From an uncultured Erysipelotrichaceae bacterium (GTDB lineage: Bacteria > Bacillota_I > Bacilli_A > Erysipelotrichales > Erysipelotrichaceae), in NCBI GenBank assembly GCA_944327105.1, contig CALVGN010000002.1, positions 1 to 39,767 on the forward strand: DNA of 39,767 bases, read 5' to 3'. Below the pieces are notes generated by a model, which did not search any database, was not told the origin of the DNA, and was given only the letters and a program-made list of their open reading frames with translations. The translations under genes were made by a program, and so were the position numbers. This document shows positions 1-37,296 of this stretch, piece after piece. The stretch's first letter is position 1. The number at the start of each line of letters is the position of its first letter.

Positions 1-1222
1 TCAAATAAGTGATGTAACTGCCCGGTGTAATGATCCCGCTGCTTTGGATCAAGAAGAACTGACCATTTCTTAACAGATAATCCGCCAGCTGGACACAATT
101 GGTCTTAAAGACATAGTACCAGCGAAACGGTCCTTTGAAAAAGGTATACATTTTCGCGTGTGTCGCAGCATAGACCCTCGAAGCATAATCATGGGCTTTA
201 CCCTTCTTACCTTGATCCAATTCCCGTTTCAGCAAACAATCATAGATCTGACTATCCGCCATCAAGGTTTCGATCCGCTTTTTGAGCAATTCCTCATTTT
301 CTTCGCTTAACTGCAACGTATAGCTCAATATGGTCTCACCACTTTCAACGCAGAACCGTAAGAAAGCAACTCGATCGACCACCAGTAATACCCCTTTACC
401 AACCGATCCCGCAACTTCACGACTCAATGGATCATGGGCACCATAGGAATAGATGGTTGAACCATAGGCCACATCCACATGGCCGAATTGTTCAAATCCA
501 TGATCATTCAAATGGACCCACACTTCTACACAGTGGGGCGGGATCGGTTGGACATCATCGATGGAACAACCATATTCATCCTTTAGATCTTTGACACTGG
601 TATATACCACGATGGGAAGCAATGCTTCCATAAAAACCGGTGCGGATAAGGAAAAACGCGCATAAAAGTCATTGCGTACACGCGCTGGTAATCCGTTGAT
701 GATCTGACGTAAAAGATCACTGGTCCCTTTCAAAACGAAATAGATCCCGATGGTTAGATCAATGATATAGAAATCATAGGAATTGAAGATCATCATCGCT
801 ATCCCCAATACCAATGAAAATACAGCCGACATCAAAGTGGACAATGCACCAGCCGATGTGGCTTTTCGACGCACATAATAATCCACGAAATTGATCAATG
901 CGATCAATATCATGTAGATCCCAACCAAAATATTGAATGTTGAAACCAATAAACCACTGTAAAACACAGTAATAATGGTTCCACCCATACCAACGATCAA
1001 TCGCAATAGGGCATCATGATCATGATACTTCGGAAGACGGATCAAAGCAAAGATGGTCGAAACCAGAAAATACAAGGTCAATAAAATATGAATCAGTCGA
1101 ACCAATCGATGCGAATCGATGATGCATAACAACCCAATGATCACTAACAATACACTGGTCCCTAAATGCATATACCGCTGATCCTGGTTCAACCATTTCA
1201 ACAATGAACCGATCCACTTCAT
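1..1222 (-). CDS. DUF308-type membrane protein with possible papain-like C-terminal domain (partial)
   Basis: The frame opens with ATG at 1222 and runs without a stop off the window edge, giving about 407 residues. The ATG overlaps the sbcC stop as ATGA, so it is probably translationally coupled to sbcC. Residues 1-200 hold roughly six hydrophobic helices with the layout of DUF308/HdeD proteins. The remaining half is soluble. It has a His-containing stretch (FGHVDVAYGSTIYSYGAHD) and, about 120 residues later, a Cys in TNCVQLADYLL followed by GIITPGSYI. This His-then-Cys order recalls permuted papain/NlpC-P60-like hydrolases (YiiX type). That assignment is an inference from motif layout. The 3' end is outside the window. 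Confidence 0.7.
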   Translation of the reverse strand, partial: MKWIGSLLKWLNQDQRYMHLGTSVLLVIIGLLCIIDSHRLVRLIHILLTLYFLVSTIFALIRLPKYHDHDALLRLIVGMGGTIITVFYSGLLVSTFNILVGIYMILIALINFVDYYVRRKATSAGALSTLMSAVFSLVLGIAMMIFNSYDFYIIDLTIGIYFVLKGTSDLLRQIINGLPARVRNDFYARFSLSAPVFMEALLPIVVYTSVKDLKDEYGCSIDDVQPIPPHCVEVWVHLNDHGFEQFGHVDVAYGSTIYSYGAHDPLSREVAGSVGKGVLLVVDRVAFLRFCVESGETILSYTLQLSEENEELLKKRIETLMADSQIYDCLLKRELDQGKKGKAHDYASRVYAATHAKMYTFFKGPFRWYYVFKTNCVQLADYLLRNGQFFLIQSSGIITPGSYITYL

Positions 1223-4335: not shown

Positions 4336-5489
4336 GGATTCACCTCATCGTAGATATGATCCAACCATTGGATCAAAGCATCGTCCATGCTCGAACCATA
4401 GATGGTTTGGTAAAGTTTGTGGATATTGGTGATGGGATCCAGATCCACTTGAAAGGATGGTTCATCCATGGTTGAACCATTATGATTCTGCTCAACCACA
4501 CTGACCGATAACAAGTTTGGATAAAGCAACGATAACTTTTGTAAATATTGAGGATCACCACAGGCTTTCGGTAATTCGATCGCCACATAGTCATCATGGT
4601 CCAAACCATCCTGATCATCAAGGATATCCATATAATCCATGGATAAAACACGGACATTGCGTTGAAAGGGAATGGATAATGGTTCGACCATCATATTCCC
4701 CTTTTCATTTAACTCAATGAAGATGATCCGTTTGGGTTTAACGGTTTCACTTAACGAATATGGATAGATCGACCCACTGTAATAGGCAGGAATGTCCTTT
4801 AATTTCTGATACGTATGCAAATGACCCAATGCCATATAGTCAAATGGTAAGACCATATCCTTCAGTGTGATCGCATCCAATCCTCCACTTAAAAGCACAC
4901 TGCTTTCACTTTCACTGGTGGTGACATCATCCATGGATGATGTCACATAAAACTGGTGGGATACCCAAATATTGCGCTGGTTGGAATCAATATCCTGATG
5001 GTTCAATAGATCCTGCATCATTTTGGTATAACCATAGTTATCTGTGGTTTTCCATCCTGGAAAATTCATGGGTCTGACAAATGGCGTACCATAAATATTT
5101 AACGGTCCATACGTATCCGTTAAAGATAATTTGAAAAACGAAGGATGTGTATCATCCAATGGTTTAGACCATATATGGATATGGTGGCTTTTAAACAGAT
5201 CCGAACCATAATCCAATTTGACAAATGAATCATGATTACCGGCAATGACCACCACTTCCACCGATGGTTCAACCATAGCCAATCGATTCAAAAAATCATT
5301 CCATAATTCGATGGCACCATTGTTTGGATTGGTCTTATCATAGATATCTCCAGCAACCAACAATACATCGATCTTCTTTTCTTTAATGGTTTCAACGATA
5401 AAATCCAGACTTTCTTTCTGCTGTTGCAGCAAAGAATAGCCATACAGTGTTTTACCCAGATGCAAATCGGATGTATGAAGCAATCGCAT
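4332..5489 (-). CDS. sbcD: SbcD, nuclease subunit of SbcCD
   Basis: This is a Mre11-type calcineurin-like phosphoesterase of 385 residues. It supplies the Mn-dependent nuclease activity of SbcCD, which cuts hairpins formed at palindromes. Metal-site motifs are visible in order: DLHLGK near the N-terminus, AGDIYD, GNHDS and GHLH. I chose the ATG at 5489 (MRLLHTSDLHLGK) because family members start here. A TTG start at 5504 is possible but lies inside the -10 box. A TATAAT at 5496-5501 ends only 6 nt before this ATG and no ribosome binding site exists, which suggests a leaderless mRNA. The gene heads the sbcD-sbcC-DUF308 operon. Confidence 0.96.
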   Translation of the reverse strand: MRLLHTSDLHLGKTLYGYSLLQQQKESLDFIVETIKEKKIDVLLVAGDIYDKTNPNNGAIELWNDFLNRLAMVEPSVEVVVIAGNHDSFVKLDYGSDLFKSHHIHIWSKPLDDTHPSFFKLSLTDTYGPLNIYGTPFVRPMNFPGWKTTDNYGYTKMMQDLLNHQDIDSNQRNIWVSHQFYVTSSMDDVTTSESESSVLLSGGLDAITLKDMVLPFDYMALGHLHTYQKLKDIPAYYSGSIYPYSLSETVKPKRIIFIELNEKGNMMVEPLSIPFQRNVRVLSMDYMDILDDQDGLDHDDYVAIELPKACGDPQYLQKLSLLYPNLLSVSVVEQNHNGSTMDEPSFQVDLDPITNIHKLYQTIYGSSMDDALIQWLDHIYDEVNP

Positions 5490-7903: not shown

Positions 7904-9613
7904 ATGAAGCAACGCTTAATGGAGTTGATGGTTTTAACCATACTGGCACTGGCCGTCGTGACCGTTGGATTGAATGATTCTGTATTTATCGGCCATGATA
8001 CTCTATTTCATTTATCACGGATCGAAGGCTATGCGCGATCCATTGCCAATGGGCAATGGATCCCGACAGTCTATCCCTTTAAAAATGATGGATATGGATA
8101 TGGTAGTGCATTGTTCTATTGTGATTTTACGTTGATCTTGCCGGCATTGCTGTATTTAAATGGTGTTTCCATTTCCACGTGTGCCACGATTTATTTATTG
8201 GTCATATCCTGGATATCTGGCTATACCATGATGCGTCTGGTCAAAACATTGACCAAGAATCCGTTTACCCCTTATCTGGCTGTGATCCTGTATTTATTTG
8301 CCAATTATCGCTTGACCAATATGTATTGCAGAGGGGCTTATGGTGAAACCAGTGCCATGATGGCTTTACCATTGGTGATCGAAGGGATCTATCGTATCTT
8401 GGTATTGAAACAGTCGAATCATTATGCTTTGGCTTTTGGATTGATCGGATTGATTTTTACCCATAATATTTCATTTTATCTGACCATGGTGGTGATCATC
8501 CTACTCATGATGGTCTATACCATCAATGGTACCTTGATTAGACAATACCGATTATGGATCCCCTTATTCAAGAATCTATTATTGGCCTTTGGTGTGACCA
8601 TGGTCTTTACATTCCCCATGCTCGAGCAGATCTATCACACGGATTATTATCTGTCCTGGTATGGTTCAACCAGTGATTTAGGGGAAAGTGCATTGCCCTT
8701 GTGGTCCTTGTTCAATCCATTATCCGTTACTGCCGGCTATGGTTCCAATACGATGGAATATTACCAGATCATGAATACTTCATTAGGGTGGCTGACGACA
8801 TTGGCACCATTGGGATGGCTGATATTATCCTGGAAACATAATGGTTTAACCACATTTATCAAAACGATCACCCTGATCGGATATGGTTTATTACTGATCA
8901 GCAGCGGTATCATCAATCTGGATCTGCTTCCCTTTTTAAAGATCATTCAGTTTGCTTTCCGTCTCAATGGGATCGCATTGGTATTGTTGGTACCATCTGC
9001 GGCAATGGTCATCGCCAATCGATGGTATTCCAAAAAGATACTGATCCCATTGATGATTGGTTTGACCATCGTTGGAATCGGACATCAGATCCCCTATTTG
9101 AATGAAGGGATGCATATCGATTCGTCCACCGCTTATTCTGCATTGATCGATGGCACTCTGTTTGATCCGTATTATGGTGATTCATCCTATGTTCGTACTG
9201 AAGTGGCAGGAGCGGATTATCTGCCCATTGGCGGTCTCAATACCAAAGATGTGGGACATGATGTTTTTTTAAATGATGGTTCGACCATTGTTGCGGATCA
9301 ACGGATTCCCTATACGTTTACCATCTCATCCAATGGGATCGTCCATATCCCGCTCACGTATTACTATGGTTATACCATCTGTGATCTGATAGATAATGGT
9401 CCATCCTTTTGCAAACCCGTGGATAAGGATACCAATGGAATGCTGTTAGCATCATTGCATCAACCGGGTACCTATGTGATCGTCTATCAACCCACAGATA
9501 TCCAAAAGTTCAGCAAGATCGGTTCTGGTCTGACCATCTTCGGATTTGGTCTTTATCAAATCATCCAACAGATCCGTAAGCGAAACGTCCATTCCGTGAA
9601 AACGCTTTCATAA
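7904..9613 (+). CDS. Polytopic GT-C-like membrane protein
   Basis: A 569-residue protein with about 11 hydrophobic helices and a C-terminal outer domain of about 150 residues, ending in one more helix and a basic tail. GHDTLFHLSRIEG follows the first helix, as in the 6-pyruvoyl-tetrahydropterin-synthase-related and YfhO-like membrane proteins thought to be GT-C glycosyltransferases; the Asp and His there are plausible catalytic residues. The start has a clear GGGAGG site, 9 nt after the upstream PMT gene, so the two form an operon. Substrate unknown. The gene carries a perfect palindrome at 9276-9288 and a 2-bp-centre copy near its start. Confidence 0.75.
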   Translation: MKQRLMELMVLTILALAVVTVGLNDSVFIGHDTLFHLSRIEGYARSIANGQWIPTVYPFKNDGYGYGSALFYCDFTLILPALLYLNGVSISTCATIYLLVISWISGYTMMRLVKTLTKNPFTPYLAVILYLFANYRLTNMYCRGAYGETSAMMALPLVIEGIYRILVLKQSNHYALAFGLIGLIFTHNISFYLTMVVIILLMMVYTINGTLIRQYRLWIPLFKNLLLAFGVTMVFTFPMLEQIYHTDYYLSWYGSTSDLGESALPLWSLFNPLSVTAGYGSNTMEYYQIMNTSLGWLTTLAPLGWLILSWKHNGLTTFIKTITLIGYGLLLISSGIINLDLLPFLKIIQFAFRLNGIALVLLVPSAAMVIANRWYSKKILIPLMIGLTIVGIGHQIPYLNEGMHIDSSTAYSALIDGTLFDPYYGDSSYVRTEVAGADYLPIGGLNTKDVGHDVFLNDGSTIVADQRIPYTFTISSNGIVHIPLTYYYGYTICDLIDNGPSFCKPVDKDTNGMLLASLHQPGTYVIVYQPTDIQKFSKIGSGLTIFGFGLYQIIQQIRKRNVHSVKTLS

Positions 9614-11659: not shown

Positions 11660-13279
<1,620 letters not shown>

Positions 13280-20846: not shown

Positions 20847-22640
20847 TTATTTATGGATCTTGCGTGTGGCGCGCTTCAGCCACGTCAGTTCTTTCCCTTT
20901 GAAATAACGGGATAAACTGCGATAAACATGCGCATGATACTGGTTCAAGGTGTTGATTTCTTCTTCACTCAATAACTTGACATCGACACCATCCAGATCG
21001 ATCGGACACATGGTCAGATTCTCCAAGTGCATGAATTGACCATATTCATTCTTCTTGCCTTTCATCACGATCATCTGGTTTTCATGACGGATCCCTAAAA
21101 CGCCAGGGATATAGATACCCGGTTCATTGGTGATGGTCATCCCTTGCTCAAAGACCGTATCTTCATGCCGACCGGCAGAAACCCGCCAGCGGAATGCTTG
21201 GGGACCTTCATGGACACCCAACACATAGCCAACGCCATGGCCGGTACCACATTGATAATCCATATCGTACTGCCATACTGGATTACGGGCTAAAATATCC
21301 AGGCTCAAACCGGTGCAACCATAAAGGAAATTGGCTTTCATCAGATCCAGATAACTCTTCAATGCTACGGTGAACCATTTTTTATGTTCCCGATCGGTTT
21401 TGCCCATGACAAAGGTACGGGTGATATCGGTGGTCCCGAATAAATATTGACCACCAGAATCGACCAACAGGAAATCTTTTGGTTCGACCATCGCACTGCC
21501 GTGTTCGGGTGCACTGTAATGCATCATGGCCGCATTGGGACCATAGGCACAGATGGTCGTGAAACTGGGTTCAAGGAATCCATTTCCCTGTTTTCTCAAT
21601 TCCAGTAATTTTTCTTGGGCTTCATATTCGGTGAACGTGTGCTTTTTGATGGTGGTTTTCAACCAATACATGAACTTGCTCACCGCCACCCCGTCGATCA
21701 CATGCGCTTTGCGCAAGTTTTTGATCTCGGTATCGTTTTTGATGGAACGCATCAAGGTAACAGGGGTAAAGGCATCATGAATGGAAATGGTCTTATCAAA
21801 ACGGGAAGATAATGCCACATTGGTACTGGTCAGATCACACCATAATGTGACTTTCTTCAACTTGGTGATATCATCGATCAATTTGGTTTCATCCACGGCA
21901 ATGATCCCATTTTCCTGTAAGTAGCAGGAAACATTGGTATCGACCTTGGTCAAATCACAATACAGTGTGGCACTGGTCAAACCAATGAGCATATAACCAT
22001 AGAATACCGGGGTACACTCCACATCATTGCCCCTTAAATTGGTGGTATACGCCACATCTTCCAATGCGCTCAATAACAGGACATCACAGTGGTTTTCCTT
22101 CATTTTGTTACGGATGGTATTCAACTTTTCCTTTGCACTTTGGCCACTGTAACGCTCATGCAATACCCAATATTTTTCATTTGGCAACTGCGGACGATCC
22201 ATCCAGATGTCTTTGGAAAGATCATAGCGGGTCTCATATTTGACTTTGACGTCTTTCAATTCATCTTTCAAACCATTGAAGAAGGTGGTCGAGACCACAT
22301 TACCGTCAAAGCCAAGGACCATCCCGTCTTTTAAAATGGATTGAAGATATTCCATTACGGTCGGTACCCCTTCCTGCCCCATTTTCCGTAACGTTACGGT
22401 GGTATCTTTCAATTGATTTTCCGCTTGGACGAAATAACGACCGTCGGTCCACAGATTGGCATGATCCATGGTCACGACCAATGTACCGGCACTGCCGGTA
22501 AACCCGCTGAAAAATTTGCGGACCGCAAATTTTGAAGCGGTATATTCACTATTGTGATCGTCACTGGTGGGGATGTAGTAGACGTCGATGCCATGGGCTT
22601 TCATGGCTTTTCGAAGTAAAGATAAACGCTGAGGTATCAT
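20847..22640 (-). CDS. Xaa-Pro aminopeptidase (M24B), three-domain form
   Basis: A 597-residue aminopeptidase P that removes an N-terminal residue before proline. Two creatinase-like N-terminal domains precede a pita-bread catalytic domain. The five metal ligands are visible: Asp in LLVDSGGQY, Asp in TTDITRTF, His in GTGHGVGYVLGVHEGP, Glu in TNEPGIY and Glu in GIRHENQM. The start ATG at 22640 follows AAAGGAAG; a TTG at 22655 is less likely. Monocistronic, ending in a strong terminator. Confidence 0.95.
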   Translation of the reverse strand: MIPQRLSLLRKAMKAHGIDVYYIPTSDDHNSEYTASKFAVRKFFSGFTGSAGTLVVTMDHANLWTDGRYFVQAENQLKDTTVTLRKMGQEGVPTVMEYLQSILKDGMVLGFDGNVVSTTFFNGLKDELKDVKVKYETRYDLSKDIWMDRPQLPNEKYWVLHERYSGQSAKEKLNTIRNKMKENHCDVLLLSALEDVAYTTNLRGNDVECTPVFYGYMLIGLTSATLYCDLTKVDTNVSCYLQENGIIAVDETKLIDDITKLKKVTLWCDLTSTNVALSSRFDKTISIHDAFTPVTLMRSIKNDTEIKNLRKAHVIDGVAVSKFMYWLKTTIKKHTFTEYEAQEKLLELRKQGNGFLEPSFTTICAYGPNAAMMHYSAPEHGSAMVEPKDFLLVDSGGQYLFGTTDITRTFVMGKTDREHKKWFTVALKSYLDLMKANFLYGCTGLSLDILARNPVWQYDMDYQCGTGHGVGYVLGVHEGPQAFRWRVSAGRHEDTVFEQGMTITNEPGIYIPGVLGIRHENQMIVMKGKKNEYGQFMHLENLTMCPIDLDGVDVKLLSEEEINTLNQYHAHVYRSLSRYFKGKELTWLKRATRKIHK

Positions 22641-22706
22641 AAAGCTTCCTTTCAAGTCATTTTTCGATCATTCAATGGTTCGACCATCAAATGCAATGGC
22701 TCTATC

Positions 22707-22712
22707 ATTGTA
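22707..22712 (-). promoter_or_regulatory. Probable -10 box of aminopeptidase P gene
   Basis: TACAAT on the minus strand, with a palindrome (22675-22687) between it and the start codon. The -35 is not clear. Confidence 0.4.
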
Positions 22713-22756
22713 ACGCAATGATAACAGGTACAACAAATGAAATGGTTCAACCATGT

Positions 22757-22762
22757 TAGAAT
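22757..22762 (+). promoter_or_regulatory. -10 box of the P-type ATPase-like gene (leaderless candidate)
   Basis: TAGAAT is followed after 7 nt by ATG at 22770. A perfect palindrome (22742-22754) ends 2 bp upstream of the hexamer. Confidence 0.55.
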
Positions 22763-22769
22763 GGAAGAC

Positions 22770-25040
22770 ATGATCACATACCGGCTGTTTCCTTATGGTA
22801 AAGACCATGATAATAAATTAGATCAATTAAAACACGATCATCCCCAATGGATGGTAAAACCATGGCTTTTTTCCATGGTCGTGATCCAGTCAGATCATGA
22901 TATCGCGACTGAATATGACCAATGGCTCTTACTCAATCATGCATATTCGACCGTATTGGGGTTATATGGTTTGACCACGGTATTATCGGCTTTGGGATTG
23001 ATCGTGGTTTCACTGACATTACCGGTATTATCCATGGAACTTTTACTTGGATTGATGATTCTTGTCCTGGTGATTACCATGGGCAGTGATGGTTTGACCA
23101 TAGTGATCGATCGGTTTAAAAATATCCGTTCACGCCATACTTTGCTGATTTCATCCGTATTCCTTTTATTCATCATTTGGTTTTTACCAGGCTTATGGTT
23201 CAAGTTGATCGCATTGCAAAGCCTTGGTTTGACCATCTTATGGTTCAACGTATCCCGTTTTGCCCATTGGTTTGCATACCGACCGCTTTATAAATATGTC
23301 AAGATTTTGGACAAACTCAAAAACGGAAGTAGTGCCTGCAAGCAAACGGATGGTTCTTATGAAAATCAGATGAATGCAACCATTGGTATCGATGATGAGA
23401 TCGCATTAAAGCGTGGTGAAACCATTCCTTTTGATGGGATCGTCATCCATGGCAATGCCGTAATCGAACCATGGATAAACCATATGCAATATGCCATCAG
23501 CGCCAATGATTCGATCCATGCCGGAAGTCGGATCGTGGATGGTTCGATCACATTAAAAGTGGTCAACTCCATCGATCACTCATTATTTGATCAGCAACTC
23601 CATCAATTGGTCACATCCAGTATGGTTGAACCAAATGATACCGTTGATGCATTGATCGCTATTGGATTTATATTGATCACTATCGTCGCGTTATTACTTT
23701 ATGGATGCAATGGTATGACCATGGTCATACTGATGAATACCATCGTACTGCTTACTGGCTGCAAGCCAGTAAGCAGTCTATCTGCCATGCATCGTTTGCA
23801 CCTCAAAGATCAAACCCGTCATGGTATCTTGTTCAACGGACCATTGGATGATCAAACGATCCATGATATCGATCATGTGATCATCGATACCGCATTGATC
23901 CATGGTTTAAACCAATTGGAAGTGGATCAAGTATGGTTAACCAAAGATGTCGATCATACCTTATTTTTCCATATGATCCTTTCTGCCATCAAAAAAGAAA
24001 ATGATCCTGCCAGTAAAGCGATCGAGGAATATATCCGTAATCAAAACATCAAAGATACGGATATTCGTCTAAGCCAAAGTATTTATAAAAAAGGATTGGA
24101 CAATCTTTTACATGGTCAAACCATTCATTATGGGGATCTCGCCACATTAAAAAACAGGAATGTGGATACATCCATCGTTTTAAGCATGGATGAAGATTTG
24201 AGAAACCACGGATCACTGATGCGTTATCTGGCCATTGATCAAACCATCATTGCCATCTTCAAATTAAAACCCATGGTTTATCCACGGTATCAACAATTGG
24301 TCCAATCATTGAAAAGCCATGGTTATACTACGATTCTTTATGATCATCAGTCCATAGATGGTTTGAACCATCTTCAAACCATTTATGGGTTTGATCAATC
24401 GATCCATGATTCGACCACATTGATCGATCTGATCCATAAGGATCAGATCGATCATCATCGCTATAGTTATATCCATGGAAAAGACCATGATCCCATATTG
24501 ATCACTCATGTGGATCTCTCCATATCATTCAATGATCCACTTACATTGGATGATATGATGCTCGACAATTTCAATCCACTAGTGATCGTATCCTGGTTAA
24601 CCCATCAGCATCGATGGTTTAGCCATTTGCATCGCTTTCGTACCCTATGGCCATGGATCATCATCATGGCCATGGGTTTATTGACATTATTGATGCCCAT
24701 GAGTGGGTATATCATCGAATCCACCTGGATCATCTTGGTTTTAACCATCGTGGATCTGTTGATCCTATCTGGCTTCTTTTATCGTGGGTATCCCATTGAA
24801 TCACTGCAGCCCGATCATTCCAAACATCTCACCCTTAAAATCGATGGCATTACCACCCATGATCATGATCGCGTGCAATCCATCCTGATTGGATTAGATC
24901 CAACCATCCATTATAGATGGATGGATGAAACCACCCTTTCCCTGGAATGTGCAGCTGATCTATCCCGATACACGATCTGTCAGACCATCCGTTCCAATGG
25001 GTTTGCGCCACGGCTGATCCATACAAAAAACGAGAAATAA
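22770..25040 (+). CDS. P1B-type ATPase-like protein lacking catalytic motifs
   Basis: A 756-residue protein with the domain order of a heavy-metal P-type ATPase, but all key motifs replaced. The actuator region is recognisable (GETIPFDGIVIHGNAVIEPW, residues about 215-235, and DSIHAGSRIVDGSITLKV), yet TGE is missing. The CPC metal site is GCKP near residue 330. The phosphorylation loop DKTGT reads DTALIHG, keeping Asp373 only. GDGIND is absent near residue 585. A C-terminal HMA-like domain has GITTHDHDR in place of GMTCxxC. Six to eight membrane helices remain. The protein is very rich in Asp and His. An intact frame of this length argues for a retained non-catalytic role. I prefer the start at 22770 to 22737, which lies before the -10 box. 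Confidence 0.75.
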   Translation: MITYRLFPYGKDHDNKLDQLKHDHPQWMVKPWLFSMVVIQSDHDIATEYDQWLLLNHAYSTVLGLYGLTTVLSALGLIVVSLTLPVLSMELLLGLMILVLVITMGSDGLTIVIDRFKNIRSRHTLLISSVFLLFIIWFLPGLWFKLIALQSLGLTILWFNVSRFAHWFAYRPLYKYVKILDKLKNGSSACKQTDGSYENQMNATIGIDDEIALKRGETIPFDGIVIHGNAVIEPWINHMQYAISANDSIHAGSRIVDGSITLKVVNSIDHSLFDQQLHQLVTSSMVEPNDTVDALIAIGFILITIVALLLYGCNGMTMVILMNTIVLLTGCKPVSSLSAMHRLHLKDQTRHGILFNGPLDDQTIHDIDHVIIDTALIHGLNQLEVDQVWLTKDVDHTLFFHMILSAIKKENDPASKAIEEYIRNQNIKDTDIRLSQSIYKKGLDNLLHGQTIHYGDLATLKNRNVDTSIVLSMDEDLRNHGSLMRYLAIDQTIIAIFKLKPMVYPRYQQLVQSLKSHGYTTILYDHQSIDGLNHLQTIYGFDQSIHDSTTLIDLIHKDQIDHHRYSYIHGKDHDPILITHVDLSISFNDPLTLDDMMLDNFNPLVIVSWLTHQHRWFSHLHRFRTLWPWIIIMAMGLLTLLMPMSGYIIESTWIILVLTIVDLLILSGFFYRGYPIESLQPDHSKHLTLKIDGITTHDHDRVQSILIGLDPTIHYRWMDETTLSLECAADLSRYTICQTIRSNGFAPRLIHTKNEK

Positions 25041-25192: not shown

Positions 25193-25242
25193 AAAACAAC
25201 CATCCAATTTATACTCATAAAGCGTTCTGGGATGGTTGTTTT
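25193..25242. terminator. Bidirectional terminator between P-ATPase-like gene and toxin gene
   Basis: Arms AAAACAACCATCC and GGATGGTTGTTTT enclose a 24-nt loop; T-runs exist on both strands. The minus-strand toxin stop overlaps it. Confidence 0.7.
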
Positions 25243-25555
25243 AAATATTTGCTTTCCAATTTCGACGGTTATACAAAATCCTCCGTACTTCCATAACATT
25301 TTCGATCACAACATAGAAAACAGTGAAATTTCGTACGTGGATGCGATAATAAGGATAATTACGTTCACGTATCGAATGGAAAGACTCAAAAGATTCCGCA
25401 AAAGAGAGTCTTTCTAAAATGGCGTTTTCGACATCATCTACGAGACGTTCAGCCGCATCTGGATTCTTCAAACGATAGGTGATGTAATCGACGATTTCAT
25501 TCATATCCTCTTCAAATAACGAAATATAGCGTAACTTATAATGCTTTTCGTTCAC
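25241..25555 (-). CDS. RelE/ParE-family toxin
   Basis: A 104-residue toxin with typical layout: an N-terminal helix pair (FEEDMNEIVDYITYRLKNPDAAERLVDDVENAI) and C-terminal strands (YYRIHVRNFTVFYVVIE, VRRILYNRRNW). Such toxins cleave mRNA or poison gyrase. The start is GTG at 25555, inside the end of the antitoxin gene (20-nt overlap), which is usual for the family. Intact, unlike the related pair at 13.7-14.2 kb. No iterated palindrome. Confidence 0.9.
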   Translation of the reverse strand: MNEKHYKLRYISLFEEDMNEIVDYITYRLKNPDAAERLVDDVENAILERLSFAESFESFHSIRERNYPYYRIHVRNFTVFYVVIENVMEVRRILYNRRNWKANI

Positions 25556-25808
25556 GAATACGTCTCCTTAACCGACTAAAGACCTCATCGGAAGAATAGC
25601 GGGAATCGGAGAGAGTTGCAGCTCGATCTGCTTCATCAAGCGCTAACTCTATATCATTTGTCAATTCTTCGTATTGTTCCAAGCTAAGTAGAACCATAGA
25701 ACCATAACCGTTTTTTGTAAGAAAAATTGGTTCTTTTTTAATTAAAACTTCTTCCTCAACCTCAGAATAATGATTTCTTAAATCTGAAACGGGGCGAATA
25801 TTCAGCAT
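25536..25808 (-). CDS. Phd/YefM-family antitoxin
   Basis: Ninety residues: an N-terminal Phd/YefM fold (IRPVSDLRNHYSEVEEEV, PIFLTKNGYGSMVLLS) and a C-terminal toxin-binding tail (TLSDSRYSSDEVFSRLRRR). GGAGG lies 6 nt before the ATG. The pair probably represses its own promoter; TAGAAT upstream (about 25830) may be the -10. Confidence 0.9.
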   Translation of the reverse strand: MLNIRPVSDLRNHYSEVEEEVLIKKEPIFLTKNGYGSMVLLSLEQYEELTNDIELALDEADRAATLSDSRYSSDEVFSRLRRRIRERKAL

Positions 25809-27797: not shown

Positions 27798-29669
27798 CTA
27801 CAAAGCATTTGCAGAATTGACTGATGTCTCGATCGCAACATTTTTGCCACTAAATGCCATGCCATAAAGAATGATCGATTGATTTTGAATCAGAATATCA
27901 TCTTCGAAATACTTTTTTTCGTTGATCTGGCGTACTGCTTTCTTGGCAACTGTCCTCAGATAATCCGGTTCCGATTGATCACATTGTTTCAATTCAATAA
28001 TGATACAAGGAAGATCGACTTTCTTTGGATATAGTAAAAGATCAAATCTTCCCATTCCACTTTCACGATTTGATCGCACCTGATAATCCGAAAACACGGC
28101 ACATAGTCCGAGGGTCAACCCATGATAGAAGCTTTCATTCGCCGTATCGAAATACGACACCGATCTTACCAATATATGCTCCAGTTGATATTTTATGCGA
28201 TCCGGTTTACCACTTTGCATCGCTTGTTCCAAATCATGAATCGTCGAATAATCAAATAATGGATCCATATATTCCAGTATTTCACGGCGAAAAACCGTTT
28301 TGATTTCCAAGTTCGGAATATTCACTTTAAATACCGGCGTCAACCCATCATGAACGGTTTCAATCAATTGTGCATTCAAATATCCGGTCACAACCAGAAA
28401 ACTGAAAATCGATTCTGTCTTGCTTTCTAGATTCGGATAGACGACATTGGTGTCAATCGGTAATGTTAGCGATCCATCAGACAACAATTCGCACATTTGA
28501 TCGTAAATCTTTCGATTACTGTTGCTTAAAATCCGTTTTATCAATGTATTGATTGACACATTTTGCCAATAAGTCCGCGCTACACAATTTCGGTTAAAAT
28601 AATTGATGACAGACCATGGATTGAATAAACGATGATTTCCAAAGGTATACCCATCATACCAGCGACATACCTCGTCATACTTTTCGGCAACCCCATAATA
28701 ATCACACATTTGTTTCACTTCTTCAGGGGTAAAACCAAAATATTCGCTGTAACGATCGTCCAAAAGTGAATAAACATTCAAATTATTCAATCCGCTAAAA
28801 ATACTTTCTTTTGCTACTCGCAAAATTCCGCTTAAAACTCCCAGTTCAAGATATGGATTATCTTTGAAACCACCCATAAACAATGGGCGCATAAAAGAAA
28901 GTACTTGATCGTAAAAGCTATTATCAAACCCAAGTTGCACCGGTGCATCATATTCGTCGATCAATATGATCGGTTTGATGCCATGATGTTGATACAACCA
29001 ACGAGTCAAAAATTTTAAGCTAAAAGCCATATCCGTTGAGGATAGATCGCCGTGAATCATACTTTGATACAGCTTTGAATCAACCTCATTCAAATGTGGG
29101 CTATGCATCAATTCGTCGTGACGTGCCGCTTCTAAACATATGATTCGCTTTAACGACTGATATACCGAATCCCAATTTTGATCCGAAAGTTCAGCAAACG
29201 AAAGATAAATAACCGGATACTTTCCTTGATATTGTCGATACTTTTCACCGGCCGACCAAATCTTAAGATTTTCAAAATACAAAGCGGTTGAATGATCGGA
29301 ATGTTCGAAAAAAGTTTTCAACATATCCATATTCAATGACTTGCCAAAGCGACGTGGTCGCGTAAATAAATATGCTTGCGATTTTTCATCCAATATATCT
29401 TTGATCAGCAGTGACTTATCGACATAATAATAATTTGATATCGTATCAATAAAATTAGAAAATCCGATTGGCATCGGTTTGATCTCTCGATTATGGAACA
29501 CCGAACGATTGTCTGACGGTTGTTTTGCACCACTAGGTATTTTCCATTTTCCATTTTCCTTAACTGCACCCAAAATACGTCCTTGAACACAGTATTCGGT
29601 GATACGTCGTGGTGACACATTCCATAACTTCGCCATCGTTTTGACACTTAAATAGGATTCATAGTTCAT
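27798..29669 (-). CDS. HTH - AAA-ATPase-like - PD-(D/E)XK nuclease-like protein
   Basis: A 623-residue protein. Residues 5-45 form a MerR-like helix-turn-helix (SVKTMAKLWNVSPRRITEY). The AAA-ATPase-like domain (PF09820 type) follows, with FTRPRRFGKSLNMDML as P-loop and ILIDEYDAPV as Walker B. A C-terminal PD-(D/E)XK domain has GRFDLLLYP and IIIELKQCD. Such proteins are common, multicopy and of unknown function, found in gut Bacillota and Bacteroidota. The N-terminal HTH fusion is less usual. GAGG precedes the ATG; TATACT upstream is a possible -10. No iterated palindrome occurs in 1.9 kb, suggesting acquisition. Confidence 0.88.
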   Translation of the reverse strand: MNYESYLSVKTMAKLWNVSPRRITEYCVQGRILGAVKENGKWKIPSGAKQPSDNRSVFHNREIKPMPIGFSNFIDTISNYYYVDKSLLIKDILDEKSQAYLFTRPRRFGKSLNMDMLKTFFEHSDHSTALYFENLKIWSAGEKYRQYQGKYPVIYLSFAELSDQNWDSVYQSLKRIICLEAARHDELMHSPHLNEVDSKLYQSMIHGDLSSTDMAFSLKFLTRWLYQHHGIKPIILIDEYDAPVQLGFDNSFYDQVLSFMRPLFMGGFKDNPYLELGVLSGILRVAKESIFSGLNNLNVYSLLDDRYSEYFGFTPEEVKQMCDYYGVAEKYDEVCRWYDGYTFGNHRLFNPWSVINYFNRNCVARTYWQNVSINTLIKRILSNSNRKIYDQMCELLSDGSLTLPIDTNVVYPNLESKTESIFSFLVVTGYLNAQLIETVHDGLTPVFKVNIPNLEIKTVFRREILEYMDPLFDYSTIHDLEQAMQSGKPDRIKYQLEHILVRSVSYFDTANESFYHGLTLGLCAVFSDYQVRSNRESGMGRFDLLLYPKKVDLPCIIIELKQCDQSEPDYLRTVAKKAVRQINEKKYFEDDILIQNQSIILYGMAFSGKNVAIETSVNSANAL

Positions 29670-37241: not shown

Positions 37242-37296
37242 GTGTGTTCCTCCTTGCTTGATTTGAATCTTGATTTGAATATGGTTGAACCATCGT

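Follow-up and report, generated by a model that had tools for sequence, protein, structure and literature searches.

Among kinases and proteases, pseudoenzymes are a familiar phenomenon. Bacterial pseudokinases (PMC12599244), for example, are paralogues of active enzymes in which the fold is kept, the catalytic residues are replaced and selection is retained, and the proteins described here, which we call pseudo-pumps, are of the same kind. Their best matches, both in sequence and in fold, are the CopA-type Cu(I) P1B-ATPases (TIGR01511/TIGR01525; structures 7r0g, 3rfu and 3j09). The domain order HMA-membrane-A-membrane-P/N-membrane is common to CopA and the pseudo-pumps, with the HMA domain lying C-terminal in the copy of the window, i.e. 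of the whole 39,767-nucleotide stretch of DNA that was analysed. Unlike CopA, the pseudo-pumps lack TGE, CPC, DKTGT, HP, TGD, GDGxND and CxxC, and the transmembrane Tyr-Asn of CopA is either Tyr-His, as in the members from genus g32, or absent. Furthermore, the members checked fall under the NCBIfam cut-offs, and the locus opposite a gene for an M24 aminopeptidase P, which harbours intact copA in sister genera, is occupied by the pseudo-pump in the carriers.

Motif-less P-type ATPase sequences have been described before. According to PMC3355532, PF00122 also matches sequences that have no phosphorylated Asp and cannot be active; the plant and algal entries of this type are PF00122-positive, as are the pseudo-pumps. 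In that paper, these entries are isolated cases (fragments, splice forms and probable pseudogenes), whereas the pseudo-pumps are 26 full-length genes from three genera and are further set apart by the purifying selection measured in four pairs of them. With the terms searched, the review PMC10654040 showed no pseudo-ATPase entry. Searches of the open-access literature for 'P-type ATPase' with 'pseudoenzyme', or for 'inactive P-type ATPase', returned no paper, which is not proof of novelty, and the open-access literature searched did not yield any description of a P-type pseudo-pump from bacteria.

The gene of the window, which belongs to a draft genome of 1.61 Mb in 59 contigs, is an intact frame of 767 codons counted from the first ATG, with no internal stop (Table 1). 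Possible in-frame starts are the ATG codons at 22737, 22761 and 22770; the first-pass annotation had used the last of these, which is in frame but corresponds to M12 of the longer protein. Its description of the frame as intact was borne out. Base-shuffled copies of the gene contained at least 28 stops (mean 45), and simulated neutral drift to a comparable divergence introduced about 35 stops, with no stop-free sequence in 100 runs. The frame is open under table 11, and its synonymous codon usage is genome-like in the correct frame only and matches that of the neighbouring genes. Retention of the frame is real. Profile searches identified the protein as a homologue of CopA-type P1B-ATPases (TIGR01525, E=2.5e-18; PF00122, E=9e-8), with a TIGR01525 score of 66 bits that does not reach the curated NCBIfam cut-off of 346. 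This homology is above chance, since 20 residue shuffles of the protein scored below 0 bits on P1B profiles, as compared to 79-109 bits for the real protein.

Table 1. Coordinates of the pseudo-pump gene, its domains and its divergent neighbour in the window
Feature	Position	Residues	Strand	Evidence
M24 aminopeptidase P, divergent	20847..22655		-	PF00557 E=1e-46; synteny marker
Divergent intergenic region, 81 bp	22656..22736		.	Between M24 gene and pseudo-pump
Pseudo-pump CDS	22737..25040		+	ORF, TIGR01525 match, motif loss, coding test, fold Z 22.6 to Cu P1B-ATPase
N-terminal membrane helices (MA, MB, M1, M2 region)	22893..23324	53-196	+	AF2 helices 53-94, 100-127, 133-148, 153-196
Actuator (A) domain	23328..23567	198-277	+	PF00122 residues 203-323; match to 2hc8
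NHM in place of TGE	23478-23486	248-250	+	Alignment to intact CopA
Membrane helices around lost CPC site	23637..23819	301-361	+	AF2 helices 301-322, 327-341, 344-361
P and N domains	23850..24590	372-618	+	CopA/CopB ATP-binding domain matches, Z 17-18
DTALI in place of DKTGT	23886-23900	384-388	+	Alignment to intact CopA
HGKDHD in place of GDGIND	24474-24491	580-585 region	+	Alignment to intact CopA
Last two membrane helices	24597..24767	621-677	+	AF2; alignment
HMA-like ferredoxin fold at the C-terminus, CxxC lost (GITTHDHD)	24813..25037	693-767	+	AF2, Foldseek

A direct motif search of the protein found none of DKTGT, CPx, TGE, GDGxND, SxHP or the HMA CxxC. Alignment to intact CopA showed what stands in their place: besides the three replacements listed in Table 1, HP has become DP, the C-terminal GMxCxxC reads GITTHDHD, both HMA CxxC motifs are lost, and CPC is replaced by GCK (342-344) or PVS (344-346), depending on the alignment. 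The Tyr-Asn and Met/Ser residues of the metal site are absent from the last two membrane helices. Thus all known metal ligands (CxxC, CPC, the transmembrane Asn and Met/Ser) are gone, and the only catalytic residues kept are D384, the Asp of DKTGT, and D585, the last Asp of GDGxND. These losses support the view, already expressed in the first-pass annotation, that this P1B-like protein is probably catalytically dead; the claim that everything had been replaced holds for the motifs and not for each residue, as the two Asp show.

Structure prediction against CopA had been proposed as a check. The AlphaFold2 (AF2) model of the whole protein (pLDDT 67.7, pTM 0.54) aligned with the Cu(I) P1B-ATPase 7r0g_B over 596 residues with a Z score of 22.6, a model that may lean towards the active P1B fold because active P1Bs were included with the window and related-locus proteins in the input alignment. 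The model predicts a P-type ATPase fold with A, P, N and membrane domains, the architecture being retained, and its A domain superimposes on that of Archaeoglobus fulgidus CopA (2hc8) with a Z score of 18.1 and an rmsd of 1.4 over 110 residues. The suggested C-terminal HMA-like domain was confirmed as a fold: residues 693-767 modelled alone gave 75 residues of beta-alpha-beta-beta-alpha-beta topology with a pLDDT of 91.4, and the nearest structures in Foldseek were GolB, HAH1 and Atx1.

We then looked for orthologs with the same losses. With the full protein as query, 272 genomes of the family yielded only intact P1Bs of 20-26% identity, and the degenerate relatives were reached only through synteny with the M24 gene. 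Motif-less P1B homologues divergent to M24 were found in two genomes of genus g18 and in many of g32. In total, 25 further species carry such a gene, 24 of them adjacent to M24 at the orthologous position in two related Erysipelotrichaceae-like genera; the copy of G110 lies elsewhere. Counting the window, divergence from M24 thus holds for 25 of the 26 members. The homologues have open frames of about 570-750 amino acids (about 570-770 for the family with the window) with the catalytic motifs lost. A pseudo-pump profile run on 315 genomes of the order separated 23 g32 species, G295 and the window (553-1048 bits) from intact CopAs (at most 465 bits). The 567-aa copy of G017 scored 354 bits, inside the range of CopA, and was recognised by locus and motifs. 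Five members outside the training set (G107, G101, G117, G115 and G116) were found by the profile and proved to be M24-linked and motif-less. The member of G123 reached 227 bits on TIGR01525, under the cut-off of 346. No members at threshold were present in f2, a family of the same order, or among 382 sampled genomes of the phylum at E<=1e-125, a threshold that would also miss the weakest known member (G017) and that distant members could escape.

This recurrence bears on the possibility that the gene is a chimera created in assembly or binning, or was read with the wrong genetic code. The genomes are indeed draft assemblies, but the same divergent locus occurs in 25 genomes of three genera, including the single-contig assembly G072, and the window frame is open in table 11 with the codon usage of its neighbours. 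Recurrence across genomes refutes an artefact of this type, whose probability we regard as negligible.

The replacements in the family follow a regular pattern. In an alignment of the 26 members, window included, the phosphorylated Asp is changed to Glu in 19 and the Lys of DKTGT to Gln in 21, giving a family pattern E/D-Q-x-x. CPC is absent throughout (26/26), its Pro being Leu in 19; the Asp of TGD is Gly in 20 and the second Cys of the HMA motif is Ser in 24. The Glu of TGE is present at the aligned column in two members, and the Met of the metal site in none (0/26). The transmembrane Asn is His in 23 of the 26, and 24 retain the Tyr beside it. Tyr-His is found in the membrane of L308:4399-6543 and other g32 members where CopA has Tyr-Asn; it is possible that this conserved pair forms a new ligand site.

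Selection was estimated by dN/dS on four g32 pairs, whereas for the window gene the evidence is the open frame and codon usage. The two closest pairs gave 0.11 and 0.10 (dS 0.56 and 0.61), the next two 0.19 and 0.16, and active CopA within the same genus 0.08-0.11. The A domain of the g32 pseudo-pumps had the lowest or near-lowest values (0.02-0.10), and TM1-4 were the least constrained. The relatives are thus under purifying selection, and neither the dN/dS near 1 nor the frame breaks that the first-pass annotation had named as marks of a fresh pseudogene were encountered: all 26 frames are open. A decaying copA still open by chance would account for the loss of all motifs and for the branch of the window protein, the longest in the tree, and it would fit the clean lack of the gene in sister g32 species and the short G017 member. 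However, dN/dS is comparable to that of active CopA, the replacements are regular and not random, and the window gene combines a frame with none of the roughly 35 stops expected under drift, genome-like codon usage and a C-terminal domain foldable alone. A fresh pseudogene is rejected by dN/dS for the g32 family and is unlikely for the window gene from its frame and codon usage; overall we consider decay improbable.

We also considered that the protein might still be an active P-type ATPase, of a very unusual type in which other residues do the work, such as a Glu acceptor or the membrane Tyr-His. D384 and D585 are kept in the window protein, Tyr-His is conserved in the g32 membrane region, and the A, P and N folds are retained. 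Nevertheless, TGE, the Lys and Thr of DKTGT, the Asp of TGD, GDGxND and CPC are lost in nearly all members, and the acceptor is Glu in 19 of 26; no precedent for such a pump was found in the literature searched. Such activity appears even less probable than decay. Regular replacements together with purifying selection are, as judged from sequence, what a re-purposed pseudo-enzyme looks like. Since dead copies are kept at the same locus under strong selection, the pump fold seems to be reused for a non-pumping job, and we hold the existence of a conserved family of non-pumping P1B pseudo-ATPases to be very likely.

The neighbourhood of the gene points to its origin. The divergent M24 gene accompanies the pseudo-pump in the 24 other species and a CPC-bearing CopA in four: intact copA in G067, G030 and G252, and a CPC-bearing CopA in G020. 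In G030, G252 and G020 this M24-linked copA, with CPC and GDGIND, is the sole CopA of the genome. The G020 protein (L156:4717-7185) has DKTNT for DKTGT, with CPC and GDGIND intact and a CsoR-like promoter box, and is possibly an early step or an active variant. PepV-ExoA-M24 synteny is common to the intact-copA loci and the g18 pseudo-pump loci, ExoA being found in g32 as well, and the window locus shares M24 only, the PepV and ExoA neighbours missing. Many g32 species have CopA but no trace of a pseudo-pump gene: M24 and the far-side NudC or PrfB genes remain and the pseudo-pump is gone. Because of this clean absence in sister species, the pseudo-pump can be dispensable.

Other genes of the window were recorded as well. 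A ParE/Phd toxin-antitoxin pair (25241-25808) and an AAA-ATPase_like/PDDEXK_9 gene (27798-29669) contain no site of the iterated palindrome described below, and the pair is also poor in GATC, so that both are likely recent arrivals. A 537-aa Cpn60_TCP1 protein (11660-13273, E=5e-72) lies beside an AraC-type regulator, without groES context in the window, and a 569-aa ORF without Pfam match (7904-9613) directly follows a PMT-family mannosyltransferase-like gene.

The window copy may share its losses with the g32 and g18 copies or have acquired them separately. By locus, it belongs to the pseudo-ATPase family with good probability. It is by far the most divergent member, with 12-17% identity to the others and a branch of 6.3 substitutions per site. 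In the tree, the degenerate proteins all fall together on the same side (96 SH-aLRT), a grouping to which a long-branch warning applies. A pseudo-pump profile built without the window gave 108.7 bits to the window protein, as compared to 79.3 bits for the CopA profile and 82 for a g32-only profile, a small margin over CopA that profile diversity may explain. Both results speak against the motifs having been lost independently, from the same ancestral copA locus, by parallel formation of pseudo-enzymes. On the other hand, the HMA-like C-terminus is present in the window copy and missing from the other 25 members, the M24 tree unites the genus g54 (G067), with intact copA, with g1, g18 and g32 in one clade, the window branch is very long, and its locus is without PepV and ExoA. 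Given this divergence and the long branches, we regard the parallel course as quite possible, if somewhat short of probable. The window gene is probably this genome's copy of a P1B pseudo-ATPase family that is conserved and descends from the copA of the M24 locus.

The richness of the protein in His and Asp had suggested metal sensing. The data did not support this. His makes up 5.7% of the window protein and 0.6-3.9% of its 25 relatives, and the known metal ligands are lost. The enrichment goes along with the word usage of this genome. A palindrome, ATGGTTSAACCAT, is present in 130 exact copies in the window genome and in 0-1 copies in ten related genomes, with 0 for a control; in the window, 85 sites with at most two mismatches were counted versus 2.1 in shuffles (for example 453-465, 1241-1253, 4468-4480, 22742-22754 and 37281-37293). 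It occurs within and between genes and is dense in weakly constrained proteins: the pseudo-pump gene is among the richest (13 sites, 5.6/kb), the ATP synthase genes have few sites and cpn60 has none. GATC reaches 13.5/kb in the window versus 3.7 expected (about 3.6 times), CCATGG 1.3/kb versus 0.2, and ATGG/CCAT are about threefold over-used; CATG, like GATC, is over-used genome-wide. In the protein, the words GLT and His-Asp accompany the over-use of GATC, CATG and the palindrome. Metal sensing is thus unsupported, the His richness being private to this genome, and we rejected it. The palindrome is highly iterated, species-specific and HIP1-like, and the HIP papers found in the literature search were cyanobacterial. 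A methylase-linked or mutational drive may lie behind the over-used words. GATC enrichment without the palindrome was seen in two other Erysipelotrichaceae-like genomes (L145 and L152).

An intact CopA was found elsewhere in the genome of 19 of the 21 carriers searched; none was seen in G119 and G123, whose assemblies are incomplete. In the window genome, contig C22 encodes an intact CopA in which the two HMA domains are present, and C3 a 628-aa P1B. Inspection of four carriers (G017, G295, G072 and G124) showed the intact copA directly after a gene for a CsoR-family repressor (PF02583), in a csoR-copA operon. A CsoR-type palindrome precedes the M24-linked copA of G030, G252 and G020 (matched by at most 2 of 1000 shuffles), and none was found before that of G067. 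No significant match to a CsoR-type operator was detected in the 81-bp region of the window or in the pseudo-pump promoters tested, the half-sites CTATAGGGG in the G123 and G137 promoters are at chance level by shuffling, and CopY-type TACANNTGTA boxes were missing from the intergenic regions examined.

These observations are compatible with the following scenario. A second copA would have taken over copper export, and the M24-linked copA, then released from pumping, would have been retained in a non-catalytic membrane role. In most relatives, the Glu fixed at the phosphorylated Asp, next to Gln, may hold one conformation without cycling. Action through protein contacts is the most likely mode, and a contact-based role is the most plausible because no nucleotide chemistry or metal ligands are left while the A domain and the Cys-less HMA fold are conserved; the contacts may be made by the HMA-like fold still present and by the actuator domain, which is under the strongest constraint, and could serve to regulate or sequester the active CopA or its chaperone. 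As P-type ATPases such as MgtA can form dimers (PMC10925321), heteromers of pseudo-pump and active pump are, by analogy, conceivable. That the pseudo-pump is a regulator or partner of CopA is nevertheless doubtful, given the many g32 species with CopA alone and the two carriers with no CopA seen in their incomplete assemblies. Taken together, we tentatively propose that a pump fold, frozen by Asp to Glu and Lys to Gln changes and stripped of its metal ligands, was reused as a membrane regulator or scaffold, possibly of CopA, and that this arose at least once, perhaps twice, in Erysipelotrichaceae after a second copA had taken over export.

Matches to PF00122 or to 'heavy metal ATPase' can be non-pumps. 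In the P-type ATPase literature searched, only isolated motif-less entries were found, whereas here a family is under selection in many gut bacteria. The intact and dead copies in sister genera constitute a natural before/after series for a non-pumping pump fold, and the family raises the question of whether dead paralogues regulate pumps in trans.
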